Below, in pieces: positions 917-17,051 of a stretch of DNA of 27,916 nucleotides (within the stretch, counting starts at the first letter, position 1; every line of letters begins with the position of its first letter). The DNA is from a virus: IMG/VR virus record IMGVR_UViG_3300032193_000551, positions 1 through 27,916 of that record, one strand, 5' to 3'. The notes under the pieces were generated by a model that saw only the letters and a program-made list of their open reading frames with translations, made no database searches and was not told the origin of the DNA. The position numbers and the translations under genes were made by a program.

Positions 917-1484
917 TTTGTTCAGTAATTTTGATATTATATGCTACAGAGATTCTATCTCGTGTTGATAAATTCTCCTCAACATAGTGTACAAGATGTG
1001 ATGGAAAGAAATAACCTGTACCTGGCACAGGGTCAAACTTATGCTCTAATCTAATATTAGCAAAGAACTTTGTTTGCTCTGCTTGTGATGGACCTTGATG
1101 TGGTTTCTGAATACACAGAGATCCAGAGTCCTCATCTCCCTGCAAATAATATACACCAGTCCAATGACAATCATGGACATGAGGTAGATGATATGCTCCA
1201 GGTGGATTGACATTAGCAAACATGTTACCAAGATATATTGATAACTTCTGCACTGGGTCTAAATGATTGACCACAAAATTATGAAACTCCTTGAAGATAG
1301 CAGAACTCAGTTCAGATAGTTCTGGGTATTTCTCCAGATGATTCTTCTGCCATCCTCCTCTATTTGATAGACGATCAGACTTCTCCTCGCTATCTCTCAG
1401 TTTGTAGAGATACTCGATGACTGGTTCGTTAAGTTGTTCGTAGTTGTCAAATTTGTATTCATGTACGAAATCACCAAGTATCAT
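897..1484 (-). CDS. 2OG-Fe(II) oxygenase, TIGR02466/2OG-FeII_Oxy_5-like
   Basis: 195 aa. The segment PHVHDCHWTGVYYL (101-114) matches the HxH...SGVYYL signature of the TIGR02466 / 2OG-FeII_Oxy_5 group of putative oxygenases. It is followed by GTGYFFPSHLVHYVEEN (155-171) with the distal H166, and by RDRISVAYNI with R177 as the likely 2-oxoglutarate anchor. GSLCIQKP lies between, where the family has a short strand. The metal triad is less clear than in the neighbouring oxygenases: H102, H104 and D105 are all candidates for the first two ligands. The start codon overlaps the stop of the upstream gene as ATGA, a standard coupled junction, which fixes the start at 1484. No signal peptide or membrane helix is visible. 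Substrate unknown. Confidence 0.8.
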   Translation of the reverse strand: MILGDFVHEYKFDNYEQLNEPVIEYLYKLRDSEEKSDRLSNRGGWQKNHLEKYPELSELSSAIFKEFHNFVVNHLDPVQKLSIYLGNMFANVNPPGAYHLPHVHDCHWTGVYYLQGDEDSGSLCIQKPHQGPSQAEQTKFFANIRLEHKFDPVPGTGYFFPSHLVHYVEENLSTRDRISVAYNIKITEQNDMQNS

Positions 1485-2347: not shown

Positions 2348-2349
2348 GA

Positions 2350-2688
2350 TTATCTATTGTGATATTCGATACCGCCATTTGGACCATAGACTTCTGCTAG
2401 AATGTAGAAGTCTGGGTCTCCATCACTAGGATTTCTCGGAAAGTTACCAGCATAATCTTCTGCTTCATCAATTGAATCAAACTCAACAAAAATAATCTCA
2501 TTGTTTAGAAGACCAGTGAATACATCATGATGAAGAAGCATCTTGTAAGTATCATATACTTGATCTCTCTTTGCTTCATCAGTAATAGCTCGTGGTCCTA
2601 CATTACGTAGTACAAGAGTTGCTTTCTCTCGTCCAGCAATGTAGTTCTCTACAATAGTTTGATATTCAAATACCTGATGGTTGTTCAT
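2350..2688 (-). CDS. Small hypothetical protein
   Basis: 112 aa from ATG 2688, which overlaps the TGA of the upstream oxygenase gene as ATGA. A longer version would have to begin at a TTG (2706) and overlap by 22 bases, so the ATG is preferred. The protein is acidic in its second half. EIIFVEFDSIDEAEDYAGNF (about 68-87) followed by DFYILAEVYG reads as strand-helix-strand, compatible with a small alpha/beta (ferredoxin-like) fold. This is inference from the hydrophobic pattern only. No catalytic motif is seen. It lies between an oxygenase gene and the unknown gene at 1481 with a 2-base gap, so it is co-translated with them. No function can be assigned. Confidence 0.65.
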   Translation of the reverse strand: MNNHQVFEYQTIVENYIAGREKATLVLRNVGPRAITDEAKRDQVYDTYKMLLHHDVFTGLLNNEIIFVEFDSIDEAEDYAGNFPRNPSDGDPDFYILAEVYGPNGGIEYHNR

Positions 2689-3215
2689 TTTAGTTCTAGT
2701 TTCCAAGCAACAGAGATACGTAGACCAGTGAAAATCCTAGATGTTTCTTCTGCCCAATGAGGAATGATTCCTGGGAATATAATTGCCTTATTGGGTTCTG
2801 GTACAACAAAGTGGTGTTTAATACCATCATCAGTAGGAAACTTAAAACAAGTTTTGCCTCCCCATTCTACATTCCACTGATCCATAGGATAATATAACAA
2901 CGTTCGACCACGATGATTCTGAGAATCTTGATGGGGATAACCCTTCATACCAAATGTGTGACCGTTGGCGTATACACGCTCAAAGTTAAATTGGAGTCCA
3001 GTTTTTGACTCAATCTTATTTAGGAGATACTCATTAAAGAACTTGTACTTACTCAGTGACATCAACCACATAGGGATTTGATTTGTTTTAGACATATCAC
3101 TTTTATGTCCCCATGCCCACAACCCATTGTTAAGTTCTCTTTGGATTGCTTGGTGGTCTAGTTCACTGAAAAAGTTTTTATATTCTACTACATCGTCAGG
3201 ACTATATTGTGGCAT
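2685..3215 (-). CDS. 2OG-Fe(II) oxygenase
   Basis: 176 aa, a compact single-domain enzyme. The iron ligands are H95-Q-D97 (GYPHQDSQNHRG) and H153 (FPGIIPHWAEE), with R166 in GLRISVAWK as the 2-oxoglutarate carboxylate partner. WNVEWGGKTCFKF (114-126) is the typical WGG turn, and PNKAIIFPGIIPHWA is the strand leading to the distal histidine. The cytoplasmic reaction would be 2-oxoglutarate-dependent hydroxylation of an unknown substrate. The layout resembles phage prolyl-hydroxylase-like enzymes more than PiuC or TIGR02466 types, so it belongs to a different subgroup from its two oxygenase neighbours. The ATG at 3215 overlaps the TAG stop of the PiuC-like gene by 14 bases; the first residues (MPQYSPDDVVEYKNFFS) look like a normal helical N-terminus. 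Confidence 0.85.
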   Translation of the reverse strand: MPQYSPDDVVEYKNFFSELDHQAIQRELNNGLWAWGHKSDMSKTNQIPMWLMSLSKYKFFNEYLLNKIESKTGLQFNFERVYANGHTFGMKGYPHQDSQNHRGRTLLYYPMDQWNVEWGGKTCFKFPTDDGIKHHFVVPEPNKAIIFPGIIPHWAEETSRIFTGLRISVAWKLELK

Positions 3216-3843
3216 TAGCTCTAATCAAATTACATCTAATAGTTTCAAGTCTACCACGCATTGGCGCATTACCCACATCCATGAGAACTTTAGACAAGTC
3301 TACAATGATCTCACGATTGCTAGCATCATCTATCATAGAATTCATCCACCATGTAATGACACGACGCTCACCAGATGTCACAGGTTTAACTCTATGATGC
3401 AGTCCTGTGTGGTAGATTACTGCATCACCAGCATTTAATTTGAACTCCTGTGTGGTATCACCAACTTTAATTTCTAGTTCTCCACCTTCATACTCACCAG
3501 GATCGTTCAAGAATACAGTTACACTGTAATCTGTCCTCATCTGATCTAGGATAAAATTATCATAGTGCCAATCATAGTGCATCCCCTCAGTATATTTGAG
3601 GAAGTTTGGATGTGTATGACCCTTAGGCAAGAAGAGATAATTTAACTTCTGATCAGAAGCAATCTGCTTATCCATCAACTGCACCATCGATGGGTAATGT
3701 ACCTCATCTAAGATCTGTTGATTGTGCTTTACTTTCTTATCACTAGATCCAGACCAGGAACCATCAGTGAATACACAGAATTCGTAGAAATCATTAATGT
3801 TGTTCACAACCCCTTGGGGCAACATATTATAAGTGTGGATCAT
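3202..3843 (-). CDS. PiuC/YbiX-type PKHD hydroxylase (2OG-Fe(II) oxygenase)
   Basis: 213 aa. Close agreement with the PiuC/YbiX family: FLKYTEGMHYDWHYDN (81-96) with H93-Y-D95, then RTDYSVTVFLNDPGEYEGGE (103-122), LNAGDAVIYHTGLHHRV with distal H150, and VTSGERRVITWW carrying the 2-oxoglutarate-binding arginine (R160 or R161). The bacterial relatives are Fe(II)/2OG hydroxylases linked to iron uptake, but their substrate is unsettled and the phage substrate is unknown. Start: a longer frame reaches ATG 3894 but would overlap the upstream gene by 50 bases with a low-quality leader (MKSLISLTSLNSC). ATG 3843 lies one base after the upstream TAA and fits the packing seen elsewhere, so it is preferred. 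No signal peptide is seen. Confidence 0.9.
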   Translation of the reverse strand: MIHTYNMLPQGVVNNINDFYEFCVFTDGSWSGSSDKKVKHNQQILDEVHYPSMVQLMDKQIASDQKLNYLFLPKGHTHPNFLKYTEGMHYDWHYDNFILDQMRTDYSVTVFLNDPGEYEGGELEIKVGDTTQEFKLNAGDAVIYHTGLHHRVKPVTSGERRVITWWMNSMIDDASNREIIVDLSKVLMDVGNAPMRGRLETIRCNLIRANATI

Positions 3844-3844
3844 A

Positions 3845-4792
3845 TTAGTCAGTAGGCAGGAATTTAGCGAAGTTAAACTTATCAAAGACTTCATCTAACT
3901 TCAGTTCTCTTGCAAGATCTAAGATCTTTCTGTCAATAGGTCTGAAGTTAGCATCATATGTCTCAAGATAGTTAATGAGATTAAGTTGCGTTTTTGATAC
4001 GAAGTCTACGGATACTTCAAAGTCATACTTTTCAAATTGATCATCAGTAGACAAATATTCTACATCACGATTAGGGTATTTTTCAAGATACTTTCTAGGA
4101 TCGATAGGATACTTTAATGTTTGAATGAACTTAAACATTTCAAAGTTATCATCAAACTCCTCGCGTGGGTTATCAGGTAACAGATCTCTCAATCTCTGTC
4201 TCCAGGTTGCCCAATCTGCTTTCTCTCCATCATATTTGACTGGAGTATCTGGCAAGACTCTAAAATCAGAGTATAGTAGCATCTTATGGATTTCATCCAT
4301 CTTCTTGTACCACTTCTGATCGTAGTAGTAATCAAGTTGCTCTAAGTTTAATTCTCTTGCTTTCTCAAGAATCTCATACTCATGCGCTTCTTTCTGAATG
4401 ATTACAACTGTATTGATGACATCATACAATGTCTTCAGATCAGCAACATCGCCTTGCTTATAGTTGTATGGTGTCCAATAAGAAGTTTGTGTAGAGAAGT
4501 CAAACTTCATTTTCTTTCTCTGACACAAGTATTTGTCATTGTTATACAACAACAGGTGCTCAATCTCATCCTTACCAGGATCATGCCACTCAGCTGAGAT
4601 AGCAGGTAAGACTACATCATTCCATGCTTTTTCATCAATAAATGTAGTCTTACCACCAAGAGCAATACCACCGAGAGTAACTGCTTTCTCTTTGAAGTTC
4701 AGTTCCATGACAGATTCTTGGGGTCTAATAGTATTAGCCCAATACTCTCTCACCTCATCTTCGGTTGGTTGTTGATAGAAATATTCTGCCAT
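3845..4792 (-). CDS. Probable tail-fibre assembly chaperone (Phage_tail_APC-like motif)
   Basis: 315 aa, acidic, cytoplasmic, no membrane segment. Residues 169-205 read HKMLLYSDFRVLPD, then TPVKYDGEKADWATWRQ, then RLRDLLP. This matches the hallmark of Phage_tail_APC/tail-fibre assembly proteins: LLxxSDW..LPDxP......W..YRQ.LRDLP. Such proteins assist folding or trimerisation of tail fibres and are usually encoded beside them. The N-terminal part (about 30-100) looks beta-rich; the C-terminal 110 residues are helical and charged and I do not recognise them. The protein is longer than typical chaperones of this kind. It starts at a TAATG overlap with the upstream oxygenase gene and ends one base before the PiuC-like gene, so it is embedded in the oxygenase cluster. 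The motif is seen; the chaperone role is inferred. Confidence 0.6.
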   Translation of the reverse strand: MAEYFYQQPTEDEVREYWANTIRPQESVMELNFKEKAVTLGGIALGGKTTFIDEKAWNDVVLPAISAEWHDPGKDEIEHLLLYNNDKYLCQRKKMKFDFSTQTSYWTPYNYKQGDVADLKTLYDVINTVVIIQKEAHEYEILEKARELNLEQLDYYYDQKWYKKMDEIHKMLLYSDFRVLPDTPVKYDGEKADWATWRQRLRDLLPDNPREEFDDNFEMFKFIQTLKYPIDPRKYLEKYPNRDVEYLSTDDQFEKYDFEVSVDFVSKTQLNLINYLETYDANFRPIDRKILDLARELKLDEVFDKFNFAKFLPTD

Positions 4793-5445
4793 TAGGGAAC
4801 CTTGATATACCAGCCAGTCAAAATATATTTATCTTGGGTGAACACTGTATTGCCTTTATGTACATGTGTCATACTCGCTGGCCAGATACAAACTGTTCCT
4901 GCAGTAGGTTGAATTCTTCTACGTTGATACAAAAACTCAGTCTCTGCTTCGCCTTCTGGCATATCATTTAGATAGATCGCCCACACAAGTTCTCTAGCAT
5001 GGTGTCCAAATCCAGAGTTTTCATAATGCCACATGTGATAACCACCACCAGGCGGTGTCTTTTGCATCTTACAATCTTCTGAGATAAACTTATTCATCTT
5101 CAGTTGATCGTACTTTTTAATATAGTGCTGCACACATGCAGTCAGATACTGGTTTGCCTCGTAATTCAAATGCTGATTTGAATAGTTCAGCAACATAGAC
5201 TCATCTTTTCTACCAAGACTACCTTGCTTAAACTGTTGTGTGCCATCCATGAACTCCATTTCTTCTGGGTCAGGATTCTCAACCAAAGAACTTTGGGATC
5301 TAATATCTTCAAAGAATTCAATAAATTTATCACATCTAGACTTTGGCATAAAGTTAGGCCAAAGACCAATAAAATCTTTAAATTCAAACTGCGTGATATT
5401 TTCATCCTCCATCAACTCAAGAGGACGAATAGGTTGCACTGCCAT
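4792..5445 (-). CDS. 2OG-Fe(II) oxygenase with HxE iron motif
   Basis: 217 aa. The stretch GGGYHMWHYENSGFGHHAR (133-151), then LVWAIYLND, EAETEF, GTVCIWPASMTHVHKGN and KYILTGWY has the order of a phage/cyanobacterial 2OG-Fe(II) oxygenase group. The first ligand pair appears as H140-Y-E142 rather than H-x-D, the distal ligand is H194 or H196, and K206 stands where many relatives use arginine for 2-oxoglutarate. The usual GGET turn is altered to EAET. Whether HxE is normal for this group or a change in this phage cannot be told from one sequence. A Shine-Dalgarno-like GAGG lies about 7 bases before ATG 5445, after an 8-base gap from the collar gene. Its TAA overlaps the chaperone ATG (TAATG). 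Substrate unknown. Confidence 0.8.
   Translation of the reverse strand: MAVQPIRPLELMEDENITQFEFKDFIGLWPNFMPKSRCDKFIEFFEDIRSQSSLVENPDPEEMEFMDGTQQFKQGSLGRKDESMLLNYSNQHLNYEANQYLTACVQHYIKKYDQLKMNKFISEDCKMQKTPPGGGYHMWHYENSGFGHHARELVWAIYLNDMPEGEAETEFLYQRRRIQPTAGTVCIWPASMTHVHKGNTVFTQDKYILTGWYIKVP
4826..4833 (-). promoter_or_regulatory. T4-late-promoter-like octamer GATAAATA
   Basis: Minus-strand GATAAATA matches the T4 late consensus TATAAATA at 7 of 8 positions. It lies near the 3' end of the HxE oxygenase gene, about 33 bases before the chaperone ATG at 4792. T4-like cyanophages are known to use this motif for structural genes. In AT-rich DNA one such match can arise by chance, and no transcript data are available. 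Confidence 0.25.
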
Positions 5446-5453
5446 AATTTACC

Positions 5454-7160
5454 TCAGTATGCTTTAATAATATACTTGACTCGGTGGTATTTAGTCAATA
5501 GGGGAATGGTCTGTTCTGGCACCAAAGAAGGAGTTGGAATGACAACTTTAGATACATTCAATTCAAATGTTGCTTCGTTAGCAGTCAATGCCAACTCAGT
5601 TGAAGAGAAGGCGATTGTAGTTGTTTCATTCAGAGCAAGTCCACCCGCACCTGTTCCAGGTCCATTATCATTTCCCCATCCATAAACATTAGCGGCATCA
5701 CCAAAGTCAGATCCTTGTTGAATATAATGTGAGTGTGATTTTAATGTGCCAGGACTATAAACTTTTACATTCGCATCTACATTATTACACAGGACGCCAG
5801 CAGTATATCTGTTACCTCCAGGAAGACCAGGAACAGTGTTCTGAGGATCTCCAGGCCAATAGTTATTAAATGTAGCGTTAAATTCTCCACCAGGAGAAAC
5901 AACACTATTATAACCAATCTGAGGATAAGTTGTATCTCTAATATCTGTTTCACTGATACCATAGAATGCACCACCAGTAGGAGGAGCACCCCAAGGAACC
6001 CAACCAACTGGGACCTGATCTGCCTGTCCACTGATTACACTATGTTCGTGTGCAGGAACAGAAACAATGTTACTTGCAACAGGACCAATATCTGCAAAAG
6101 TATTACCAGTAATATCATATGTAATGTTACCAGTAATGTTGTCAGAACCAGACGTTACAAGAGTTCCCAGTTTAAAGAATTTACTATCATTACCACCAGT
6201 AAAACTTGTAACCGAATCAACTCTGACTATTGTATCAGCAGCACTATTATTAGCATTCCAATAATCTGTAGAAAGGAAATCTCCTACTTGGTATCCATTT
6301 CCAGGATCTAAAATCGCATCAATACGTATTATAGTATCATATGTTCCACCACCAACAGCAGATGGATATGCTTCATATGTAATTCTCATTCTACAACCAC
6401 TTCCACTACCACCAACCATGTCTTCATCTCTGGTTACAGAATCTGTTGGACCAGACAATAATTGTCCAGCATCTGCTCTATATGAATTCGCACCTAAAAT
6501 TGATGGGAAGTAAGTGTTAGAACCACCACCATCACCACCAGTTGGAGCTTGAGTTCCATTTGAATTAACATAGTCATTAGACCAGAATAAAGCAAATGTT
6601 ATTACTCCTCTAGTAGAACCTGTAGTACCACTATATACTTGTTCGTCTGGTGGATCTCCCTGGGCATCAATCTTTTTGATGTACCAGTTTCCTCCCATAG
6701 AACCAGCAGTAAAACCATCCCCAGATCCACTAGATGCTGGATCAGGAGCATTGACTGTGGTTAGAATAGGAGAAGCAGCAGAGTTACCATCTACGTTTCC
6801 AGTACCATGCAATCTTCTATTTCTGTAATTAGGAAGATTGAAAGTTCCTGAATATGTTTTGGTGTTTCCACTGATTGTTTTTGCACCATTACCACCATAG
6901 GTGTTCTTGATATTATCCCACAAATCTGGATAATCAGCAACATTTAGAGTTCTTCCATCACACTCAATCCACCCAGGGAATCTTGAATCTAAATTACCAT
7001 CTAGATCTCCCCAGTTTCCGTTCTTATCTCTAAAGACGGACATAACAGTGCCAAGAGACATGCCATCCAGTTTTTTATTTCTGACACTATACCAGTGTCC
7101 TGGTTGGATATTATCAGCACTATCATACGTAGTGACTGTCCAAGAAGTAGTATATGACAT
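5454..7160 (-). CDS. Tail-collar-domain fibre protein with large insertion
   Basis: 568 aa. Residues 36-115 hold a phage tail collar domain: LGTVMSVFRDKNGNW, FPGWIECDGRTLNVADYPDL, NTYGG and FNLPNYRNRRL. Residues from about 120 to 365 are an insertion absent from the other two collar proteins here, including DPGNGYQVGDFL (285-296), a strand motif common in cyanophage structural proteins. Two His-x-His pairs (371-373 and 476-478) resemble metal-binding pairs of T4 gp12 and gp37. The C-terminus YHRVKYIIKAY parallels YIIRAY and EYIIKF of the other collar proteins, so the three are paralogues with a shared ending. It should be a virion protein of the baseplate or tail fibre, possibly touching the receptor. 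The ATG lies one base after the stop of the 1226-aa adhesin gene, with GGAT close in front. Confidence 0.8.
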   Translation of the reverse strand: MSYTTSWTVTTYDSADNIQPGHWYSVRNKKLDGMSLGTVMSVFRDKNGNWGDLDGNLDSRFPGWIECDGRTLNVADYPDLWDNIKNTYGGNGAKTISGNTKTYSGTFNLPNYRNRRLHGTGNVDGNSAASPILTTVNAPDPASSGSGDGFTAGSMGGNWYIKKIDAQGDPPDEQVYSGTTGSTRGVITFALFWSNDYVNSNGTQAPTGGDGGGSNTYFPSILGANSYRADAGQLLSGPTDSVTRDEDMVGGSGSGCRMRITYEAYPSAVGGGTYDTIIRIDAILDPGNGYQVGDFLSTDYWNANNSAADTIVRVDSVTSFTGGNDSKFFKLGTLVTSGSDNITGNITYDITGNTFADIGPVASNIVSVPAHEHSVISGQADQVPVGWVPWGAPPTGGAFYGISETDIRDTTYPQIGYNSVVSPGGEFNATFNNYWPGDPQNTVPGLPGGNRYTAGVLCNNVDANVKVYSPGTLKSHSHYIQQGSDFGDAANVYGWGNDNGPGTGAGGLALNETTTIAFSSTELALTANEATFELNVSKVVIPTPSLVPEQTIPLLTKYHRVKYIIKAY

Positions 7161-7161
7161 A

Positions 7162-10100
7162 TTATCCGACTGTTATTGAAATGGCGACTGAAGTACCTAA
7201 TGATGCACTACTTTGTATTCTGAGACGTAAGGTCTCCCCATTATTTATTGATCCTGCTGTAACCCAGAGTCCACCATTGATCTGCATTTCTCCACCTGTA
7301 ATGGCAATTGGAGATGGTGAGGTGATACCAAATATTTGTACAACATTACTGTATATGAGAGTATTTGGTGGTTGATTATCTTTATTGATGAACGTAAATG
7401 CATCAGGTACAATATCACCAGTAGTAGTTGTTACAACTTTCCAATCATCAGATAATTGAGTTGATGGTGAATTGCCTATAGTGACTGTAGTAGAAACTTC
7501 ACCGCCAGGTTCTGTACTAGATTGTAACCTGAGTTGTAATGTACCATTAGGACCAATTGATCCAACAGTATCCCATGTGCCACCATCAACTCTTAATTGT
7601 CCAGGTGGCGTAACAATAACATTTGTTGGTACATTGATACCTGTAATGGTGAGTGCATCACTCTCAACAAATGTATTTGCAGGTTGATCAATCTTATCAA
7701 CAAAATCAAAGAAGTCAGGGTTATCATCTGCTACAGTAACGTTAGTAACATTCCAAGGAACAAGTGGACCTGTTCCAACCTGAACACCTGTATTGATAGA
7801 ATCACCAAGAACATCACTAGTAAGAACTCGTAGTCTCAATCCATCACCGTTATCAATCAACTTAGCAGCAGCAGACCACTCACCATCATTAACAGAACTC
7901 TCAGCACCATTTAATGGAACATTAACGTTACCAACAACATTAAGACCAGTAATAGTGACTTCATTACTTAAAACATAAGATTCAAGTGGAGCATCAACAA
8001 CATCTTCAAATGCAAATGTATTTGGTATATTTGCTGGTTGTACTTTCGTGGTAATAGTAAATGTACCACTTGTTACTCCAACAGCAATGGATGATGTTTT
8101 TGCTGTGGCATACAAGTTTGACGATTCCATCCTGACTTGGAGAGTATCACCACTCACTACACCAGTAATAGAATCAGATGTATATGCACCACCATTAAGT
8201 GATAACTCTGCTCCATTAGTACAGAAAGCAGTAACAGGTATATCTAATCCACTCAGAGTAACAACATTGGATTCATACATGGTGGACAATTCTGCATTTT
8301 CAACAGAATCAAAACCAAATACATCTGCAACATCATCAGGTGCTTCAACTTCTACAGTTACTTCTGCCTGAGAAAAAGCACCACCAGAAGCAACAGTCAA
8401 CGTATATGTTGTTGTTACCGCTGGAGATAGAATAGTTAGGAACTGATCTCCAACTTGTACAGTACCAATGCCTTGGTCAATTTCTGCGGTAGATGCTGTC
8501 TCATTACCATTGAATAATGTACTCCAACTTAAGACAACTGGGTCTCCTTCCTGAATAGTAGTTGATGGTGAGTCATCATTCGCTCTGAAGTATGAAATAG
8601 ATGGAGGAATTGTGAAACTAAGAATACCATATCCATTGTTATTATTGGTGCTTTGTGAAGAGAAAGCAAAATAAGCAGGATCATATTTCGATCCTCCACC
8701 ACCACCAGACGAACCACCAAAACTTTTATCAACACCAGCACCACCGCCGCCACCAGCGCCAGCGCCTCCACCACCACCGCCGCCTCCGCCGCCGTCTCCA
8801 CCACAGTTAGCACCACCGCCGCCAGTAGCAGGATTAATAGCAGCACTAGCACTAGTTCCACCACCAGAACCAGCACCATTAGTGCAGCTGCGTTCCCAGG
8901 AACCGCCGCCGCCACCGCCGCCTCCACCAGACACAGCAATCCAGGTTCCACCTAGAGATGCTCCACTTGCAGCGCCACCACCTCCGCCAGATCCTGACCA
9001 TCCACCACCTTGACTATCTCTTCCACCTGCTCCACCAGCAGCAGCACCACCGCTACCACCACTACCGCCAGGTTTGTTTCCAGGAGATCCAGAGGCACCA
9101 TTGCCTCCCTGTCCACCAATCTGTAAACTAACTGTTAAAGTATTAGCTGGTGGTAAAATTTCTAATACTTGTACTCTACCACCAGCACCACCACATCCTC
9201 CACCACCAGCATCAGATCCACCAGATCCACCACGACCAGCAGCAATAGTTAAGAATGCATTTTCTGATCCTGCTGGAATAGAAACAGTATGATTTCCTAC
9301 ACCATAGGTAAAGGTAGTTTGTGGGTTTGGAATGATGGTGTCAAAACTATATCCAGATATTGGTGCATAGAAAATAATACCATCAGGATCAGTAAAAAGT
9401 GCATTAGTAGTGTATACCCATTCTCCAGTTGAAACTACAGACCACATAGTATCTGCACCATTTGTCCATCCATATATTGTTTTAACTCCCACAGGTAAAG
9501 TTGCTAACTGTGCTGCAGTTAGTCCATTTACCAAATTAGGATACACATATCCAATCACACCACTGTATGGTTTAGGACCACCCAATGCATCTCCATCATC
9601 ATTATCGACAAGAGGAACAGTGAGAGGTGGTTGTCCAGTTGCTACACTAAATGCTTTACAAATTTCTCCTTGATCTACATATCCAGGATAAGTTACTGCA
9701 TTTGGAGGATCTCCTGCTTCATCACAGAAATGATCACCCGTTGTTGCATTATAGTAACGGTGTACTGAGATAACATTATATGTTGTTGTTATCACAGTGT
9801 CACCAGGATCTTCACGTACAATAACTACAACTCTAATGGTATCAGTAGTTGTTCCACCAGGACCAATAGCGGTGATTGTATAATCTGTTGATGTTGTAGG
9901 AGCTACAACTTGTGTGCCTGTAGCAGGAATAGCAGCACCATTTAGAGTAATACTAGTAGGTTCATCTCCAGGAGCAGCAGTAACTTGCCACGATAATGTA
10001 GTAGATCCTTCGCCTTGAATAATTACAGCAGGGTTAGATTCAAACTGAATTGTTGGTGGGTCACCAGAATCATATGAAATATAAAAATAACCATCATCTC

Positions 10101-10842
10101 TATTTTCAGGGATGTTTGATTCATCAACAATAGCACAAGTTGGAACTGCTAGATCATTATAATATCCTCCTCCACCTTGACCTGCTGCTCCAGGAATATG
10201 ATTACCTGCAAACTGAGCACCACCACCATTACCTTTAGGTACTCCACCACCACCTCCACCAGATCCACCATTAGCAGAAGTGCTACCATTACCACCAAAA
10301 CCTCCAATACCACCACCAGTAAAGTTAGTAGTAAGATCAGTTCTATATGCAGGAACTTGTCCACCATAATCAACAGCACTACCACCACATCCTCCACTAC
10401 CACCAGCAACAGCAATAACAGTACCAAGATCAACAGCAACTAGAGCGGATGCTCCGCCACCACCAGATCCACCACCAGCAGTTACCCATGTTTCTGCACC
10501 TGGCGCTTGACCTCCAGGTCCACCATCATAATAACCACTACCACCTGCAGCACCAGCATCATATCCATAATTACTAGTTCCCACTAATCCGTCATCACCA
10601 AGGTAAACAGTAATAGTTTGACCACCAATAACTCCAGGATCCAAACTTCCAGTCATATACTGCCCTTGAGGTGCAGTTTGTGGTGGAGATGCAGTTAATG
10701 GTTTTCTAGGGTCAACATAAGTTCCACCCAAAGCATTACCACCTTTCGCACCACGAAGTATAAAACTGACGTTAGTAGCATTTGCTGGAAACAAAAATGT
10801 ATGAGTTCCAGGTGTAGTAAATTCGTATGTCTGAGTTGCCAT
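7162..10842 (-). CDS. Modular adhesin: two glycine-rich domains plus four Ig-like repeats
   Basis: 1226 aa, largest of three tandem paralogues. Residues 1-260 form a first glycine-rich domain that opens like known Gly-rich tail proteins (GTHTFLFPANATNVSFILRG). Residues 263-343 look Ig/PKD-like. Residues 355-400 (VHRYYNATTGDHFCDEAG) resemble the YRYYN..TGDHFYT repeat of DUF5648-type proteins. A second glycine-rich domain spans about 510-745 and is almost pure Gly/Ser/Ala in places. Then come the shared linker (YFRANDDSPSTTI, 751-763) and four Ig-like repeats at about 839, 939, 1040 and 1144, ending SITVG. Polyglycine-rich folds are known in T-even gp38 adhesins that bind host receptors, so a receptor-binding tip is a reasonable inference. 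No signal peptide is seen, as expected for a virion protein. Start and stop overlap both neighbours tightly. Confidence 0.8.
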   Translation of the reverse strand: MATQTYEFTTPGTHTFLFPANATNVSFILRGAKGGNALGGTYVDPRKPLTASPPQTAPQGQYMTGSLDPGVIGGQTITVYLGDDGLVGTSNYGYDAGAAGGSGYYDGGPGGQAPGAETWVTAGGGSGGGGASALVAVDLGTVIAVAGGSGGCGGSAVDYGGQVPAYRTDLTTNFTGGGIGGFGGNGSTSANGGSGGGGGGVPKGNGGGAQFAGNHIPGAAGQGGGGYYNDLAVPTCAIVDESNIPENRDDGYFYISYDSGDPPTIQFESNPAVIIQGEGSTTLSWQVTAAPGDEPTSITLNGAAIPATGTQVVAPTTSTDYTITAIGPGGTTTDTIRVVVIVREDPGDTVITTTYNVISVHRYYNATTGDHFCDEAGDPPNAVTYPGYVDQGEICKAFSVATGQPPLTVPLVDNDDGDALGGPKPYSGVIGYVYPNLVNGLTAAQLATLPVGVKTIYGWTNGADTMWSVVSTGEWVYTTNALFTDPDGIIFYAPISGYSFDTIIPNPQTTFTYGVGNHTVSIPAGSENAFLTIAAGRGGSGGSDAGGGGCGGAGGRVQVLEILPPANTLTVSLQIGGQGGNGASGSPGNKPGGSGGSGGAAAGGAGGRDSQGGGWSGSGGGGGAASGASLGGTWIAVSGGGGGGGGGSWERSCTNGAGSGGGTSASAAINPATGGGGANCGGDGGGGGGGGGGAGAGGGGGAGVDKSFGGSSGGGGGSKYDPAYFAFSSQSTNNNNGYGILSFTIPPSISYFRANDDSPSTTIQEGDPVVLSWSTLFNGNETASTAEIDQGIGTVQVGDQFLTILSPAVTTTYTLTVASGGAFSQAEVTVEVEAPDDVADVFGFDSVENAELSTMYESNVVTLSGLDIPVTAFCTNGAELSLNGGAYTSDSITGVVSGDTLQVRMESSNLYATAKTSSIAVGVTSGTFTITTKVQPANIPNTFAFEDVVDAPLESYVLSNEVTITGLNVVGNVNVPLNGAESSVNDGEWSAAAKLIDNGDGLRLRVLTSDVLGDSINTGVQVGTGPLVPWNVTNVTVADDNPDFFDFVDKIDQPANTFVESDALTITGINVPTNVIVTPPGQLRVDGGTWDTVGSIGPNGTLQLRLQSSTEPGGEVSTTVTIGNSPSTQLSDDWKVVTTTTGDIVPDAFTFINKDNQPPNTLIYSNVVQIFGITSPSPIAITGGEMQINGGLWVTAGSINNGETLRLRIQSSASLGTSVAISITVG
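7165..8604 (-). repeat. C-terminal Ig-like cassette, copy 3 (in the 1226-aa protein)
   Basis: Residues 747-1226: linker module YFRANDDSPSTTI...EIDQGIG followed by four repeats of roughly 85-100 residues. Each repeat follows the pattern F.F.D..(8-12)..SN.VTI.GI......NG...NGG.W.....NG..L.LR..SS......V.IG. The same five-part arrangement ends the two paralogues upstream, at 10845-12335 and 12836-14326. Repeat n of one gene resembles repeat n of the others more than its own neighbours, which shows duplication of the whole cassette and not internal expansion. Confidence 0.85.
7242..7249 (-). promoter_or_regulatory. T4-late-promoter-like octamer AATAAATA
   Basis: Minus-strand AATAAATA matches TATAAATA at 7 of 8 positions, about 82 bases before the ATG at 7160 of the third collar gene and inside the last Ig-like repeat of the adhesin gene. 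It is a chance candidate in AT-rich DNA and is listed only because the octamer is the known late-promoter core of T4-like phages. Confidence 0.18.
8608..9315 (-). repeat. Second glycine-rich tract (low-complexity coding repeat)
   Basis: Encodes residues of about 510-745 of the 1226-aa protein, with glycine runs up to nine long. On the plus strand it appears as CCACCACCGCC-type triplets. Part of it (8740-8930) uses many GGC codons (GCC on the plus strand), which makes it locally more GC-rich than the rest of the window. The ends keep beta-strand-like segments (NHTVSIPAG, GYGILSFTIP), as expected if a Gly-rich core is inserted into a beta sandwich. Confidence 0.75.
10152..10765 (-). repeat. First glycine-rich tract (low-complexity coding repeat)
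   Basis: Encodes residues of about 27-230 of the 1226-aa protein: repeated GG-x-G and SGGGG blocks broken by short strand-like pieces (VTAGGG, VIAVAGGSG). Glycine codons here are mainly GGT and GGA (ACC and TCC on the plus strand), in line with surrounding genes and unlike the GGC-rich part of the second tract. Confidence 0.75.
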
Positions 10843-12833
10843 TATCCTATCGTAATGCTCATGGTTTTGGGCGTAGATAATGTAGGTGCAGTAAGAATTC
10901 TCAACTGCAACGTTTCACCATTGTTAATGTTGCTAGATGTAATCCAGCTACCACCATTGATTCTAAACTCTCCATTTGTAATAGTAATTGGAGATGGAGA
11001 TGTAATACCCGAAATCAAAACAGTATTACTACTGATATAGGTGCTTGGTGGTTGATCAGTCTTATCAACAAAGTAAAATGCATTTGGTATAATATCACCA
11101 GCAGTTGTGGTAAATACTCTCCAAATGTCACTCAATGATGTCAGTACACTGTTTCCAATGGTGACATTAGTATTTACCTCACCACCAGGGTCAGGACTAG
11201 ATCTCAACCTAATTTTTACTTGCTGATTGTTAATAACTGTTGTAGATGGTCCATATAATGTTGTTGCACCACTGATAGGATCAAATATAATAATTTCAGC
11301 GAGAGGATTGGTACAGACAATATTAGTGGGAACATTAATTCCTGAGATAGTTACATATTCACTCTCAACTAAACTATCTGCGGGTTGATTGATTTTATCA
11401 AGGAAATCAAAGAAATCAGGGTTATCATCTGCTACGGTGACATTGGTTACAGTCCACTCTCTTGCAGCACCATCACCAACTGTAATAGTTGTAGTTTTTG
11501 CATCACCAAGAATATCACTTGTAAAGACTCTCAACTGTATTTGTTGACCATTAAACATTGACTTAGCACCATTACTCCATGCTCCCCATGAAATACCATC
11601 ATTAATTCTGCTTTCAAACTCTGGATTACTTGGTGCAGTAACACTAGTATCACCAGTAATACCAGTAATAGTTACAGTATTACTCTCCACATAACTAAGA
11701 ATTGGAGCATCAATAACATCAATAAATTCAAAATCATTTGGAACATTATTACCAAGAGATTTTGTTGTAATATTCCATGGTGCTGATGTGGCACCAACGG
11801 TCATTTCTGTTGTTTTTAACGTTGCATTTGTAGCAGAGGAGACCATCTTTAGTCTAATTGTGTCACCATCACATACTGTTCGTGTATCAGTGGAGTAAGC
11901 ACCTCCATTAATAGAAAAAGTGGCACCATTTGTTGCAAATGCATCTTGACATACTGCTAATCCACTGATTGTAATTTCTTCAGACTCATATTCTTGTGAC
12001 AATTCAGCATTAACAATAGATGCAAAGGTAAATTGGTCTGGTTCATTATCAGGTGCTTCTACAATAACACTGACATCCTGAGTTAGTGGACCTGTAGATC
12101 CAGTGATTGATAATCTATATGTAATATCTGTTGTTGGAGCTGGTACAAGAGGAATAGTTCCAGAATCAATAGTACATCCAGGAATTAAAGTTACATCTCC
12201 AATGCCTTGGTCAATACTAGCAGTGTATGCGGATGTTTGACCATTCCACAGTGTTTCATATGTTAACGTGCAAGGATCTCCTCTTGTAATAGTAGTAGAT
12301 GGTGAATCATCATTTGCTCTAAAATATTGAATATTAGTTGGTGGATCAACTGCTACAAATGACAAGTCAACTTGATAAAAACAAGACTCATCATGAAATA
12401 AACTATCTCTGGTTGTAAAATCTACTGTTAATGTATTGGTAGTTCCAGCAGGAAGATAGAATGGTCCAGGTTGATTCTGTGTAATAGTTACAGGAGCAGT
12501 TCCACAACCTTGTCCACCACCTGACGCTGCCGCAGTATAAATCACACCACTAATTTCTGGTCCAGAAACAGACAATGTAATTGCTTCATATCCAGGGTCT
12601 TGTGCCTCACCTCTTCCAGCAAGTGCGACTGACATATCATAATTAGGTCCAGGAATAATAGTTGCAGTTGCTGTACCAGATTGTGTGCTACTATTAGATC
12701 CACCGCAGTTACTTGATCTTTCTAAGTTGAACCTAAGTCTAGTTCCTGCACCATTTCCATTGTCAGAAATGACCCATCCTCCAGATGATACGCCACTTTG
12801 AGTAGTGCTCCAAGTAATATTAACGACTGCCAT
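10842..12833 (-). CDS. Modular adhesin/tail-fibre paralogue with four Ig-like repeats
   Basis: 663 aa. The N-terminal domain (1-165) is unique to this gene: cysteine-containing and rich in Ser, Thr and Gly, without a match I recognise; WVISDNGNGAGTRLRFNLE and GYEAITLSVSGPEISG look like beta strands. Then comes the shared linker (IQYFRANDDSPSTTI at 168-182, with SIDQGIG) and four Ig-like repeats starting at about 264, 364, 471 and 582, ending SITIG. The repeats are of the type found in many bacterial surface proteins. No signal peptide is present, so this is most likely a virion appendage. It is joined to both neighbours by TAATG overlaps in which the last Gly codon (GGA) and stop form AGGATAATG. 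Role in host binding is inferred from architecture and neighbours. Confidence 0.75.
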   Translation of the reverse strand: MAVVNITWSTTQSGVSSGGWVISDNGNGAGTRLRFNLERSSNCGGSNSSTQSGTATATIIPGPNYDMSVALAGRGEAQDPGYEAITLSVSGPEISGVIYTAAASGGGQGCGTAPVTITQNQPGPFYLPAGTTNTLTVDFTTRDSLFHDESCFYQVDLSFVAVDPPTNIQYFRANDDSPSTTITRGDPCTLTYETLWNGQTSAYTASIDQGIGDVTLIPGCTIDSGTIPLVPAPTTDITYRLSITGSTGPLTQDVSVIVEAPDNEPDQFTFASIVNAELSQEYESEEITISGLAVCQDAFATNGATFSINGGAYSTDTRTVCDGDTIRLKMVSSATNATLKTTEMTVGATSAPWNITTKSLGNNVPNDFEFIDVIDAPILSYVESNTVTITGITGDTSVTAPSNPEFESRINDGISWGAWSNGAKSMFNGQQIQLRVFTSDILGDAKTTTITVGDGAAREWTVTNVTVADDNPDFFDFLDKINQPADSLVESEYVTISGINVPTNIVCTNPLAEIIIFDPISGATTLYGPSTTVINNQQVKIRLRSSPDPGGEVNTNVTIGNSVLTSLSDIWRVFTTTAGDIIPNAFYFVDKTDQPPSTYISSNTVLISGITSPSPITITNGEFRINGGSWITSSNINNGETLQLRILTAPTLSTPKTMSITIG
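10845..12335 (-). repeat. C-terminal Ig-like cassette, copy 2 (in the 663-aa protein)
   Basis: Residues 167-663. Mosaic resemblance: the linker (SIDQGIG) and repeat 3 (VADDNPDFFDF) are closest to the 1226-aa paralogue. Repeat 2 (FESRINDG, then GAW) is closest to the 699-aa paralogue. The repeat 1-2 junction (NNVPNDFEF) differs from the PA-IPNTF form shared by the other two. Confidence 0.85.
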
Positions 12834-14932
12834 TATCCTATTGTAATACTAACGGTTTTATCTGTACTTACTACTGCTGGACTTATCATTCTAAGTTTTA
12901 CAGTATCTCCATTACTTACATTACCTGTAAATGCCCATGCACCACCATTAACAGATGCTTGACCATTGGTAACATTAAATGGAGATGGTGATGTAATACC
13001 TTGGATTATAATAGTATTACTCTCAACATATGTATTAGGGACTTGATCGTCTTTATCAATAAAGTAGAATGGATCAGGTATAATATCACCAGATGTAGTT
13101 GTAGTAATTCTCCATGTGTCTGATAGACTTGCATTGACAGAATTACCAATCGTGACAGTTGTTTCTACTTGACCAGCAGGATCAGGACTAGATGTTAGAC
13201 GAACTGATATTGTCTGATTATTAGTAATAGTTACAGGAGATGGATTATATGGTCCACCATCGACAGAAATAGTAGCACCATTTGATGTTGATACTAATGT
13301 TGGAACATTAATACCTGTAATAGTAAGTGTATTGCTGTCAATTGGAGTTGATGGTGGTTGGTCTACCGCATCAGTAAATTCAAAGTAGTCTGGTACACTA
13401 TCAGATACAGTTTGATTAGTGACACTCCACGATGCAGGAGCACCTGCACCAACCGTAATAGTTGTAGTCTTCGTATCTCCTAAAATATCACTAGTAAGAA
13501 CTCTTAATTGCAACTTCTGTCCATTTGCAATAGTTTTAGGATCTGCATTCCATGGTCCCCACCCAGTTCCATCATTAACTCTACTCTCAAAACCAAATAA
13601 AACTGCACTAGGAGCGGTTACAATAGCGTCAGTAGTAATTCCAGTAATAGTAACTTCATTGCTCTGCACATAAGATTGCAATGGAGCATCTATAACGTCA
13701 TTAAATGTAAATGTGTTTGGTATTTGTGCAGGTTCAGATTTAGTTGTAATCTTGAATGTAGTGGTATAACTACCAATTGTTACTGATGCAGTTTTTAGCG
13801 TTGCAAACAATGCAGATGACTGCATCCTTAATTGTAAACTCTGTCCGTTACCAATTGTTCCAGCAGTTGTAGTAAAACCACCACCATTAATGGACATCTG
13901 TGCTCCATTAGTAACAGAAACAGGAACAGCAACTTCTAATCCACTAATTGTTACTACATTACTAGAATATACTTGTCCCAGTTCTGCTTCTGTGATGGAA
14001 GAAAAAGTAACTGGGTCTGGGTCATTATCAGGGACCAGCATTTTAATGGTAATGTCTCTGGTTAATATGCCAGAATTACCATTAACTTTTAATCTATATG
14101 TTGTCTCTGCTGATGGACCAGGGTTTAGAGTATAACTACCACTCAAAAGACTTCCAGATGGAATAGAATAAATTTGCGTCTCTGTGCCACCATTTACAAG
14201 GTAAATCTGTCCACTAGTAGCCCCTTGGAAATTTCCTAATTGTGTGCTCCAAGTAAATGTTATTGGATCCCCAGGAATAATACTATGGGTAGGGAAATCA
14301 TCATTTGCACGGAAATATTGAATATGTGTTGGAACCTCACCATAGATACGTATTCTAGAAATAGCATATCTATCACCAGCATTTACATTCTGTTCATATA
14401 CACCACCACTACCAGCAAATTCTGGTTGAGCGACACTATAAGCATAAAACTCCCACAAGAATAATCCACGATTTGCAGCAGGAATTTGTACAGTTACAGT
14501 AAACCAATTTCCGCCACCCTGAACATCTGGAAATGTATATCCACCATCTCTACCAGAATATGCGACAAGTGTTGGTGCAGTGCTACCACCACTAGAACAC
14601 TTAAGATATAGAGATTCTCCATTATTGTTAGGTCTCTCTCCACCATTATAATCATCACCAACAATAACATCAATGATCATGTACTCCATAGAGGTAGTAT
14701 TCATCAACCATTGAGCAGACCTGTTGACAACGTAGAAGGTACTGCCAAATGTACCAAAACTTAGATGCTTTGTACCAACGTTGTTTTGAAATCCACCAAG
14801 TTCTCCAGTTCCACAAGCACCAGAAACTCCATAACAACTATTATAGATAGCACAACCATCCAGATAATCATTTACTCCATCAAAGTCCCAAGATCCTTGC
14901 CCTGGTAGAAGTGTGTAGATTAATTCTGCCAT
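12833..14932 (-). CDS. Modular adhesin/tail-fibre paralogue with unique N-terminal domain
   Basis: 699 aa, first of the three tandem paralogues in transcription order. The N-terminal domain (1-198) is unlike those of the others: it contains WDFDGVNDYLDG, a cysteine-bearing stretch (CAIYNSCYGVSGACGTG) and predicted beta strands (YMIIDVIVGDD, NWFTVTVQIP, RYAISRIRIYGE). This could be a jelly-roll or lectin-like carbohydrate-binding domain, but that is only inference. The shared linker begins at HIQYFRANDDFP (203-214), followed by four Ig-like repeats starting near 304, 404, 513 and 619 and ending VSITIG. No signal peptide is seen. The gene begins 2 bases after the stop of the short collar protein and its TAA overlaps the next ATG. 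Probably a tail-fibre component exposed to the host. Confidence 0.75.
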   Translation of the reverse strand: MAELIYTLLPGQGSWDFDGVNDYLDGCAIYNSCYGVSGACGTGELGGFQNNVGTKHLSFGTFGSTFYVVNRSAQWLMNTTSMEYMIIDVIVGDDYNGGERPNNNGESLYLKCSSGGSTAPTLVAYSGRDGGYTFPDVQGGGNWFTVTVQIPAANRGLFLWEFYAYSVAQPEFAGSGGVYEQNVNAGDRYAISRIRIYGEVPTHIQYFRANDDFPTHSIIPGDPITFTWSTQLGNFQGATSGQIYLVNGGTETQIYSIPSGSLLSGSYTLNPGPSAETTYRLKVNGNSGILTRDITIKMLVPDNDPDPVTFSSITEAELGQVYSSNVVTISGLEVAVPVSVTNGAQMSINGGGFTTTAGTIGNGQSLQLRMQSSALFATLKTASVTIGSYTTTFKITTKSEPAQIPNTFTFNDVIDAPLQSYVQSNEVTITGITTDAIVTAPSAVLFGFESRVNDGTGWGPWNADPKTIANGQKLQLRVLTSDILGDTKTTTITVGAGAPASWSVTNQTVSDSVPDYFEFTDAVDQPPSTPIDSNTLTITGINVPTLVSTSNGATISVDGGPYNPSPVTITNNQTISVRLTSSPDPAGQVETTVTIGNSVNASLSDTWRITTTTSGDIIPDPFYFIDKDDQVPNTYVESNTIIIQGITSPSPFNVTNGQASVNGGAWAFTGNVSNGDTVKLRMISPAVVSTDKTVSITIG
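12836..14326 (-). repeat. C-terminal Ig-like cassette, copy 1 (in the 699-aa protein)
   Basis: Residues 203-699. Same layout as the other two cassettes, but the linker lacks DQGIG (it has VNGGTETQIYS), and repeat 3 begins VSDSVPDYFEF in place of VADDNPDFFDF. The repeat 1-2 junction (PAQIPNTFTF) is shared with the 1226-aa paralogue. Confidence 0.85.
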
Positions 14933-14934
14933 TG

Positions 14935-15807
14935 TTAGAATTTAATGATGTATTCAACAAGAACAAATGGTTGGATACTCTCTGGTAATTCAGTTACAGT
15001 CTTAGTAGAAACATTAATAGTTGTCTGTAAATTGTCTGCAGGGACATTAAATGTGTTAAATGAATATGCAAAGTTGTTAGTATAGTCTGCAGAAGTTGGC
15101 CAACCTACTTTATGTTGGTGACGGGAAGTTTCAGTGGTAGTTGGGTTACCAGAAGTCTCTAGAGAGTGACCAGCAAATACATTCAATGTTCCATCACCTT
15201 TACCATCAGCACCAACCCTAAAGTTACCCGTATAATTTAAAACTCTGGTGTTTGCATCGTGACCATGAGCTTGGAAATTACTTTGATCAAGGATTACTTC
15301 TGACATCAATTTATCTTCAGGTGGGGTAAATTTCGTACTTCCCAACAAAGGAAGATCATTTTGACCAATAACAGTAAAATTACCAGAATAATCAATAGTA
15401 GATTGATTACCAATATTAGATGTTACATCAACTTCAGATCCAACACGTTTCTTTCCAGCAAAATTCTCTGTTTGAGTTTGCAATAGTGTAAGATCACTAT
15501 ACTGTCCCGACGCAAGACCTGGCTTAAGATATTTTGATCCTAAATCAGGTAATTGGAATTGATCTTCAGATATTGTCTTTTCTGGTTTCCTAAACTTTGA
15601 CGCATCACCAGTACCTAACAATGCAGCAAGTTCTGGATACTCAGATGCGGGCAAGATAGATCCATCACACCTTAAAAATCCAGCGGGAATTTGTGATCGC
15701 CAAGTGCTATCTAAAGGATCATTTGCAAGTGGCAATGTTGTAGTATACACTTGAATACTACCAATAATACCACCGTATTTTGATTTTTCTCTTGCGTAAT
15801 TTGCCAT
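14935..15807 (-). CDS. Tail-collar-domain fibre protein (short)
   Basis: 290 aa. Collar-type N-terminal part: GGIIGSIQVYTTTLP (12-26), IPAGFLRCDGSILPASEYPEL (40-60) and FQLPDLGSKYL (84-94). These match the pattern of the other two collar proteins (GWIECDGR..., GWLICNGQ...). Two His-x-His pairs, 181-183 (QAHGHD) and 230-232 (SRHQHK), and the ending VLVEYIIKF are also shared features. It would be a small baseplate or tail-fibre protein. Its ATG overlaps the TAA of the 414-aa collar gene (TAATG), suggesting the two are made in step and may form parts of one structure. The domain call is by motif; its exact place in the virion is not readable. Confidence 0.75.
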   Translation of the reverse strand: MANYAREKSKYGGIIGSIQVYTTTLPLANDPLDSTWRSQIPAGFLRCDGSILPASEYPELAALLGTGDASKFRKPEKTISEDQFQLPDLGSKYLKPGLASGQYSDLTLLQTQTENFAGKKRVGSEVDVTSNIGNQSTIDYSGNFTVIGQNDLPLLGSTKFTPPEDKLMSEVILDQSNFQAHGHDANTRVLNYTGNFRVGADGKGDGTLNVFAGHSLETSGNPTTTETSRHQHKVGWPTSADYTNNFAYSFNTFNVPADNLQTTINVSTKTVTELPESIQPFVLVEYIIKF

Positions 15808-17051
15808 TAGTATGCTCTGATGATGTACAGACAGATTAGTGATGGAGTTGCGGGATTAACATTAACATTGAATGCTTTATCAATGTTATCTGGAACAACA
15901 TTAGAAATCACGTTAACATTAGTTGTCGTTGGTAGTCTCTGATTAGCAAGATCAAAGAATACTTCAAATGGTTCATGTTGGTGTGGTTCGATAATAACGT
16001 CTCTACCTGCAATACCTGTAGTTTGATTAAAACTAATAGCATCTCTATTAAATAAAGTTTTTGTAAACGCTACAGCATCACCACTACTAGCAGCACCTGG
16101 GTCCCAGTTTCTAACTGGAATAGTAGTAGTGCTACCACCACTCATGTGTAGTAGAGTATCACCATTCAAGAACTGTTCGTCCATACTATAAGATGGGGGA
16201 AATCCTTGATTTGCACAAATCAAATAAGAATCATCACCAAACCAGTTTGCAATAGGAGAACCTTTCACTTCGTTTGCTTTCAAGTTAAATGTTGGGTTCT
16301 CACCACCAACGTTACAGATAAAAACTCCAGGTTGTCCACCACCAAATCCTTGCTGACTAGTATACTGAATTTCTAACTGTGCTTGAACCTTACCATAATC
16401 AAGTTCGTCAAAGTTAGCACGAGAAATACGATAATTAACTTCTCCCCATGCAGCAACACCTGCTCCAGGTTTCAATCCACTAGATCCACCCTGATAAATG
16501 GTATCAAAAGTCTCAGTGTGACTATGAATACTCGTATGCTTTCTGCCAAGTTTTCTAGCAGAAGTATATACTGTTTTTGCACCAAAAGTATCATTTAGAG
16601 TAGCACCAGTTAATTTGCCAAGAAAATCATTTTCTGGTGTATATGCGAAATTAATGTCGGTATATGCGCTAGTAGGAGCACCAGCAGAGTTATCAGTATC
16701 AGGACCAATCAAAGATGTAGTAGTGCCCTGTTCTACCAGAGCAGCTAATGCAGTTGTAGTATCAATATCATTACTATTATCAAAATACGATGCTTCAATA
16801 TCAACCAGTCCTCTCTGATTGATATTTGGTAAGAATATTCCTCCACTATAGTTTGGAAACGTACCAGCTAAATTATCTCCACCATAATTATCACCCATCA
16901 TTTGAGTCAAAAGTGGGTAGTCACCTGCTTCAATCCTCTGTCCATTACAAATTAACCAACCAGGAGGAATGGCAGTCAAGTCGCCGCCCCATGGCATGAT
17001 GGTGCCAATGGCGGCGGCAGTCATAGTTTTTAGTGTTCCGTATGTTGCCAT
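15807..17051 (-). CDS. Tail-collar-domain fibre protein
   Basis: 414 aa. The N-terminal collar domain is the clearest of the three: AIGTIMPWGGDLTAIPPGWL (14-33), CNGQRIEAGDYPLL, GDNYGGD and GIFLPNINQRGL (71-82). The middle is fibre-like and beta-rich. His-x-His pairs are at 176-178 (IHSHTE) and 357-359 (PHQHEP), of the kind that hold Fe or Zn in T4 tail fibres. It ends LICLYIIRAY, like its paralogues. ATG 17051 follows 48 non-coding bases after the giant gene, with no classical Shine-Dalgarno but an A-rich leader; the next residues (MATYGTLKTMTAAAIG) are a normal soluble N-terminus. It opens the run of tightly packed genes to its left. Confidence 0.85.
   Translation of the reverse strand: MATYGTLKTMTAAAIGTIMPWGGDLTAIPPGWLICNGQRIEAGDYPLLTQMMGDNYGGDNLAGTFPNYSGGIFLPNINQRGLVDIEASYFDNSNDIDTTTALAALVEQGTTTSLIGPDTDNSAGAPTSAYTDINFAYTPENDFLGKLTGATLNDTFGAKTVYTSARKLGRKHTSIHSHTETFDTIYQGGSSGLKPGAGVAAWGEVNYRISRANFDELDYGKVQAQLEIQYTSQQGFGGGQPGVFICNVGGENPTFNLKANEVKGSPIANWFGDDSYLICANQGFPPSYSMDEQFLNGDTLLHMSGGSTTTIPVRNWDPGAASSGDAVAFTKTLFNRDAISFNQTTGIAGRDVIIEPHQHEPFEVFFDLANQRLPTTTNVNVISNVVPDNIDKAFNVNVNPATPSLICLYIIRAY

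Follow-up and report, generated by a model that had tools for sequence, protein, structure and literature searches.

Donor-strand complementation is known from chaperone-usher pili and from TasA, where an immunoglobulin (Ig)-like or similar fold lacks a strand that the N-terminus of a neighbouring subunit can supply. Phages of the Ackermannviridae carry several receptor-binding proteins per particle as tail spikes that are joined together. The T5-like phage DT57C builds a fibre from two proteins, LtfA and LtfB, where T5 has one, and head exchange as well as fibres with several adhesins were already known (PMC4728585). For cyanophages and pelagimyophages, a host recognition cluster has been described, a variable island in the structural region with tail fibres and carbohydrate-binding domains (PMC7029224). 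Little is understood of how marine cyanophages select their hosts and accommodate several receptor-binding proteins. Here we analysed IMGVR_UViG_3300032193_000551, an IMG/VR virus record used in its entirety (27,916 bases), from a virus of marine cyanobacteria (the window), in which three adhesin genes are followed by the gene of a tail-collar protein resembling the short tail fibre protein gp12. The last Ig-like repeat of each adhesin lacks its final strand, and the N-terminus of the collar protein is homologous to that strand, which suggests that unlike heads plug into one common fibre socket.

Each adhesin ends in an incomplete Ig-like repeat

The adhesins are encoded by three open reading frames (ORFs) on the minus strand, at 12833-14932 (699 amino acids), 10842-12833 (663 amino acids) and 7162-10842 (1226 amino acids), which overlap at their starts and stops. 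An earlier note on this DNA had described them as neighbours with a common linker and four Ig-like repeats behind unlike N-termini; ORF positions, alignments and a hidden Markov model (HMM) of the repeat confirm this, and all motifs quoted in that note are present. C-terminal identity is 51% over 506 columns between the 699- and 663-residue proteins and 46% over 520 columns between the 699- and 1226-residue proteins, with 30-65% per stalk segment among the three copies, whereas the N-terminal parts match one another only weakly. The repeat HMM (101 positions; scanned against 512 proteins, open-ended ORFs being counted at the closed end only) finds three complete repeats and a shortened fourth in each adhesin, and the linker is predicted by modelling to be an Ig-like domain itself. 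The resulting map of the array and its collar gene is as follows.

14333..14932, minus strand: head of the 699-residue adhesin (residues 1-200), the first-position head, 48-84% identical in the first position of relatives
13079..14332, minus strand: linker Ig-like domain and complete Ig-like repeats 1-3 of the 699-residue adhesin (alignment, model, HMM)
12836..13078, minus strand: repeat 4 of the 699-residue adhesin without strand G (residues 619-699, HMM 1-83 of 101)
12342..12833, minus strand: exchangeable head of the 663-residue adhesin (residues 1-164), replaced in 20371_000069 and in last position in L053/L054
11088..12341, minus strand: linker Ig-like domain and complete repeats 1-3 of the 663-residue adhesin (model, HMM)
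10845..11087, minus strand: repeat 4 of the 663-residue adhesin without strand G (residues 583-663, HMM 1-83)
8611..10842, minus strand: head region of the 1226-residue adhesin, two glycine-rich parts and an extra linker-type Ig domain
7408..8610, minus strand: linker Ig-like domain and complete repeats 1-3 of the 1226-residue adhesin (alignment, HMM)
7165..7407, minus strand: repeat 4 of the 1226-residue adhesin without strand G (residues 1146-1226, HMM 1-83)
7110..7154, minus strand: strand-G segment at the N-terminus of the collar protein (residues 3-17; HMM 86-100, E 3.3 alone; G-strand matrix; alignment with single-chain relatives)
5454..7160, minus strand: 568-residue tail-collar protein (gp12-like short tail fibre), the proposed socket (Pfam Collar, phrog_4924)

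All three adhesins terminate in SIT(I/V)G. Repeats 1-3 continue from this motif with a short turn and strand G, whereas repeat 4 stops after strand F, at HMM position 83 of 101 in every case, leaving an acceptor domain without one strand. In the model of the 663-residue protein the repeat without G has also lost strand A and has a shortened strand F, and the strand listing of the 699 model agrees. One base past the stop of the 1226-residue adhesin, the collar gene starts with MSYTTSWTVTTYDSAD. This strongly conserved N-terminus aligns with the continuous domain of single-chain relatives (L027, L042, L044, L082, L083 and others), and where the collar is fused to the repeats, e.g., in L082 and L044, the alignment passes uninterrupted through the break seen in the window. 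When the N-termini of 500 ORFs were scored with a matrix of strand G, the top 15 all came from the family of the 568-residue collar protein. Repeats and collar form a single polypeptide neither in the window nor in its clade; a stop codon lies between them, making this the split variant, and the split collar genes cluster in a single clade (17 of 28 rows, support 84/93).

A natural covalent version is found at L027:10894-15489, where one ORF of 1531 amino acids unites a glycine-rich N-terminal part, four repeats and the collar; it directly follows a 290-type collar gene, without a separate adhesin. At L044:15067-20452 the gp12-like gene is present as two ORFs (663 and 994 amino acids), and L030 has one of at least 1819 amino acids.

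Joining of the 1226- and 568-residue products by programmed frameshifting or readthrough was rejected as unlikely, since the frame offset and the spacing between stop and start vary among relatives. A pilus-like chain, in which each adhesin N-terminus completes the previous adhesin, was likewise discarded on the strand-G scores of these N-termini (699, -20; 663, -6; 1226, -10; versus 5.2 for the collar protein). Residues 15-26 of the 290-residue collar protein score 5.3 on the same matrix, which we take for chance.

Adhesin ends and fibre starts are complementary at three break points

Throughout the clade of the window, all 60 adhesin ends fall at HMM positions 80-84 (overlapping loci of one contig counted apart), and the collar N-termini cover positions 86-100 (21 rows). 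The N-terminal HMM list has 35 rows, three of which look like chance matches and were left uncounted (L039, L043 at 16152 and L044 at 13639; E 4 to 47). The same complementarity recurs elsewhere in the domain: in L082 both adhesins end at position 22 and gp12 starts at 23, while in other cyanophages 15 adhesin ends lie at 47-52 and ten gp12 starts at 48-54. All three break points are located in predicted loops. For the break in the middle of the domain, profile-profile comparison matched 26 adhesin C-termini to repeat columns 8-50 (probability 90%, E 1.5e-6) and the gp12 N-termini to columns 48-85 (96%, E 1.3e-9); the 26 C-termini were chosen for profiling, with six that lack the half-domain and two of L082 among those left out.

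In S-PM2, three genes annotated as virion structural proteins precede gp12; the adhesin half of the domain (the plug) sits at the extreme C-terminus of each, and the complementary half (the socket) at the extreme N-terminus of gp12. In a phage collection of 50,697 records, the socket half occurs in 49 records, once in each, and the plug half in 49 records at 143 places, one to six per record; the two sets of accessions are identical (lists compared by eye). Many of the 49 records are strains of one phage, so that the independent cases are far fewer than 49. A plug query from L044 had no match in this collection, and a socket query from L030 matched eight records.

In the distant cyanophages L058, L030, L037, L040, L043, L044 and L047 the adhesin ends are conserved and read roughly D(I/V)(D/E)IPVEIK followed by W(Q/K)(N/S)(V/L)R(E/Q/S)I, a pattern that could be used as a signature for adhesin genes.

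Heads are exchanged and gene number changes between genomes

The loci compared here are designated W (the window), A (25483_000098), B (35135_002002), C (20371_000069), E (06868_000090), F (47562_005341), J (L054) and K (L053). The suggestion that heads are swapped on a common stalk holds between genomes, where sequence comparison makes the exchange clear and places the crossovers within homologous stalks. Most of the C locus is 81-94% identical to A and B at the DNA level, but the head of its second gene only 44-45%. In the stalk of this gene, identity is 44-72% over the linker and repeat 1 and rises to 73-98% where repeat 2 begins; the replaced segment is bounded on the left by the stop codon of gene 1 and on the right by the boundary of repeats 1 and 2. 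The new head resembles gp134 of S-H9-2 (protein, 67% over 112 residues; DNA, 78% over 294 bases), whereas neighbouring proteins of C and S-H9-2 match at 33-49% only.

In J and K the last-position adhesin bears the 663-type head (62 and 58%). The linker of this adhesin groups with other 663-type linkers (93/93) and its repeat 1 with the stalks of the J and K lineage; forcing J and K into the 663 group was rejected for repeat 1 (p=0.0015) and for repeats 2-4 (p=0.004), but not for repeat 2 alone (p=0.38). The single gene of F groups over its first 330 columns with the first gene of E (100/99), a grouping with E's second gene being rejected (p=0.0014), and over its last 172 columns with last-position copies (92/95), a grouping with E's first gene being rejected (p=0.003). 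A tree that pairs this last part solely with E's second gene falls short of the best one, yet is not rejected (p=0.30). By these trees, the gene of F is a fusion of a first and a last copy, as a deletion between two stalks would leave. Gene number differs accordingly across loci, with three adhesin genes in W, A, B, C and J, two in E, L025, L026 and the Sf-CH1b types, and one in F and L080.

Several observations count against exchange. All three heads are kept in A (and in its near-copy 25668_000032) and in B, and intact heads in close relatives had been named in the earlier note as evidence to the contrary. Among close relatives the heads are conserved as much as the stalks or more, unlike a fast-evolving receptor-binding tip, and several of the exchange cases are single metagenomic contigs. 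For C, the approximately unbiased (AU) test does not reject the grouping expected without replacement when linker and repeat 1 are taken together (p=0.14) or for the linker alone (p=0.15), with p=0.031 for repeat 1, so that this case rests on DNA identity. One further candidate, a recent transfer of a 663-type head into 17783_000788 (88% identity versus 64-71% for most neighbours), was dropped because the order of the head tree is the same as that of the c414 tree.

Proposed docking by completion of a split Ig domain

We propose that completion of a split Ig domain is what attaches the adhesins to the short tail fibre, with one common socket and interchangeable heads, an explanation that we regard as probable, if by no means secure. 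Each adhesin consists of a row of Ig-like domains with a presumed binding head at its N-terminus, and the first strand of the collar protein would complete the open repeat 4 in the manner of donor-strand complementation, so that any of the three adhesins could use the single socket. Physical docking, receptor binding by the heads and the orientation in the virion are the parts of this mechanism that we infer. Each head is flanked by homologous stalk, namely the end of the previous gene's repeat 4 on one side and its own linker and repeats on the other; recombination between stalks can thereby swap, delete or reorder heads and leave the docking end untouched.

A number of points count against docking. 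By HMM alone the collar strand is not a significant match (E 0.7-24), and nine further collar genes of the clade fall below the HMM cut, although they score with the strand-G matrix. In the AlphaFold monomer model the incomplete repeat 4 reaches fair confidence. At the middle break the end of the plug extends a few positions too far, giving a small overlap with the socket, and no plug is seen in six of the 30 adhesin C-termini examined (Sf-FR1, four; L042 and L043, one each). Moreover, splitting a gene automatically leaves complementary halves, so that complementarity alone is no proof of contact.

The alternatives differ in what they make of these data. A serious one, though we consider it unlikely, reverses the orientation: the N-terminal domains would attach to the virion, and the stalks would carry the collar tip outward as the distal receptor binder. 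The receptor-binding part of T4 gp12 is at the C-terminus, which speaks for such an arrangement, as do a variable insert in the collar protein and the good conservation of heads among close relatives. It fits poorly with heads that are unlike in the three copies and pass between distant phages, and with one jelly-roll head whose model resembles carbohydrate-binding folds.

Slightly less probable is ordinary modular evolution of fibres, with real head exchange, a gene break that is a relic of fission, and attachment to the virion by other means. Module exchange in fibres is well known, fission by itself yields complementary halves, and as the split collar genes are one clade (84/93) a single event could suffice. 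Fission gives no reason for the retention of half-domains that are not expected to fold by themselves, here over long divergence and with a conserved end in the 26 aligned C-termini; it also leaves unexplained why several adhesins of a genome have a common break point and why both halves occur in the same records. Three different break points and identical sets of 49 records likewise argue against a mere relic. Docking by domain completion explains the retention of half-domains, the common break point and the co-occurrence of the halves.

Tentatively, and at somewhat less than even probability, the docking proposal may be extended from sequence to T4-like cyanophages at large. Their fibre would be assembled by trans-complementation of split Ig domains, with one gp12-like socket and one to six competing plugs per genome and, if the fibre is a trimer, possibly up to three different adhesins on each. 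The break point would have moved at least twice while staying complementary, and the stalks would serve as a platform for the recombination of heads.

Patchwork among the three copies

The mosaic of shared motifs had been interpreted as recombination or gene conversion among neighbouring copies. Among 196 informative three-way sites in the window, 77 favour the pair 663/1226, 71 favour 699/663 and 48 favour 699/1226. The pattern is slightly more clustered than in shuffles (112 runs, fewer than shuffled, p=0.005; segment chi-square p=0.026; longest 663/1226 run p=0.008), with the remaining five clustering statistics at p=0.035 to 0.64, and the stalk segments do not follow one branching order, so that this outcome, named in the earlier note as refuting its view, is not what was observed. 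The copies have the same base at 26-63% of fourfold sites, and no identical DNA stretch between them exceeds 20 bases, which rules out recent conversion in the window. Conversion of the entire repeat 2 between the 699 and 663 genes was rejected (p=0.018). As to the motifs, among 29 stalks (the set of relatives, three of them partial) the relaxed linker motif is found in 23, the relaxed repeat-3 motif in 23 and the relaxed repeat 1-2 junction in 17; only the FESR(I/V)NDG insert, present in two of the 29 and both times in the window, is a shared novelty. With three of the four quoted motifs widespread among relatives, and thus mostly of shared ancestry, we rejected the motif patchwork as proof of conversion.

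What remains of the conversion claim is small and old. Counted in windows of 25 codons, stretches closer to a paralogue than to the orthologue are more numerous than in column shuffles for W (25 versus 9.9, p=0.005), A (19 versus 6.9, p=0.010) and B (34 versus 10.1, p=0.005), and this excess of short paralogue-like patches makes old, small-scale conversion among the tandem copies likely, yet not as the main process. The whole-stalk tree (26 rows; the partial stalks N9, M9 and D2 were left out of trees) groups W and the three nearest genomes by position, with 100/100 for second and 100/99 for third copies, and unites all first-position copies (81/83). The pairwise homoplasy index (PHI) test was not used as evidence: besides the stalks, it is significant in single-copy c414 and h315, in the 699 head and in one of two c568 sets, and therefore not specific; in c290 and ox217 it is not significant. 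Conversion among the three tandem copies as the main process has in its favour the weak clustering, the patches in W, A and B, and the grouping by lineage of the L025/L026/L053/L054 stalks (99/99), but is distinctly improbable given the diverged synonymous sites, the short identical runs, the mostly ancestral motifs and the grouping of second and third copies of W, A, B and C by position.

Heads and neighbouring genes

AlphaFold models of the 663- and 699-residue proteins (mean predicted local distance difference test score, pLDDT, 82.6 and 77.7) both show a head followed by Ig-like domains in a row. The modelled 699 head resembles jelly rolls of the reelin-repeat, MAM and CBM type (Z 9-10.8; 3a7q, 3.3 A over 135 residues) at a low confidence of pLDDT 35-82. 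For the 663 model the list of structure matches hardly covers the head, and Foldseek with whole models returned Ig strings only. Pfam searches of the adhesin heads gave no match, and head sequences searched against solved structures no credible one. Other cyanophage genomes have a 33% relative of the 699 head at a different locus, within a PA14-domain protein (6001-6402 of L059, S-MbCM6). Compared with its nearest relatives (1063-1065 amino acids), the 1226-residue protein has about 160 additional residues, which lie in its head region (8611-10842), and the heads of these relatives also contain the extra linker-type Ig domain. BLAST does not show the J2 and W3 heads to be the same; both are merely glycine-rich.

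Along the minus strand the order of genes is a structural protein of 3344 amino acids, collar proteins of 414 and 290 amino acids, the three adhesins, the 568-residue collar protein and eight further genes. The two upstream collar genes are located as follows.

14935..15807, minus strand: 290-residue tail-collar protein upstream of the array
15807..17051, minus strand: 414-residue tail-collar protein upstream of the array

The eight-gene run (320-5445, minus strand) keeps its order in relatives, and five of its genes match Sf-CH1b genes annotated as 2OG-Fe(II) oxygenase, dioxygenase or prolyl 4-hydroxylase. Synechococcus phage Sf-CH1b, a cultured phage whose host is Synechococcus WH8102, is also the best match among annotated phages, with 45% identity over 76% of the 663-residue protein; megablast of the locus against phages gave no match. 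The insert of the 568-residue collar protein (residues about 185-322, some 138 residues; window about 6195-6608) is missing in most near relatives and present in another form in the Sf-CH1b type, making it a second variable site at the locus.

Comparison with known systems

Searches of open-access papers found no description of split Ig docking in phage fibres. If true, docking would explain how unlike heads share one fibre, name a small interface and give a simple rule, the half Ig domain, for recognising cyanophage adhesins; the anatomy of the array also accounts for the gain and loss of heads, and for their exchange between distant phages, with assembly unbroken. Several joined receptor-binding proteins, as proposed for the window, are found in DT57C and the Ackermannviridae, where the accessible parts of the sources describe no complementation of Ig domains. 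The host recognition cluster of cyanophages and pelagimyophages is a variable fibre island like the one in the window; the accessible part of that report (PMC7029224) describes neither the cassette anatomy nor split domains.

The closest counterpart is the gp12 locus of the Kyanoviridae (S-PM2, S-H9-2, Syn1; phrog_4924). The 568-residue protein matches Pfam Collar (PF07484, E 1.8e-10) and phrog_4924 (E 2.1e-80), and the latter, annotated as short tail fiber protein, also matches all three adhesin stalks (E 7.4e-29 to 2.1e-38), so that stalks and collar of the window are both akin to this family. Like the window, S-H9-2 and S-PM2 have collar proteins, three genes for virion structural proteins, a gp12/collar gene and a 2OG-Fe(II) oxygenase gene. 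In the Kyanoviridae, however, the repeats are held by the collar protein (full repeats in gp12 of S-H9-2 and S-PM2) and the break cuts an Ig domain at its middle, whereas in the window the repeats belong to the adhesins and the split precedes the last strand. Compared with chaperone-usher pili and TasA, the pairing proposed here from sequence would involve different fibre proteins, several plugs for one socket and three break points across phages.

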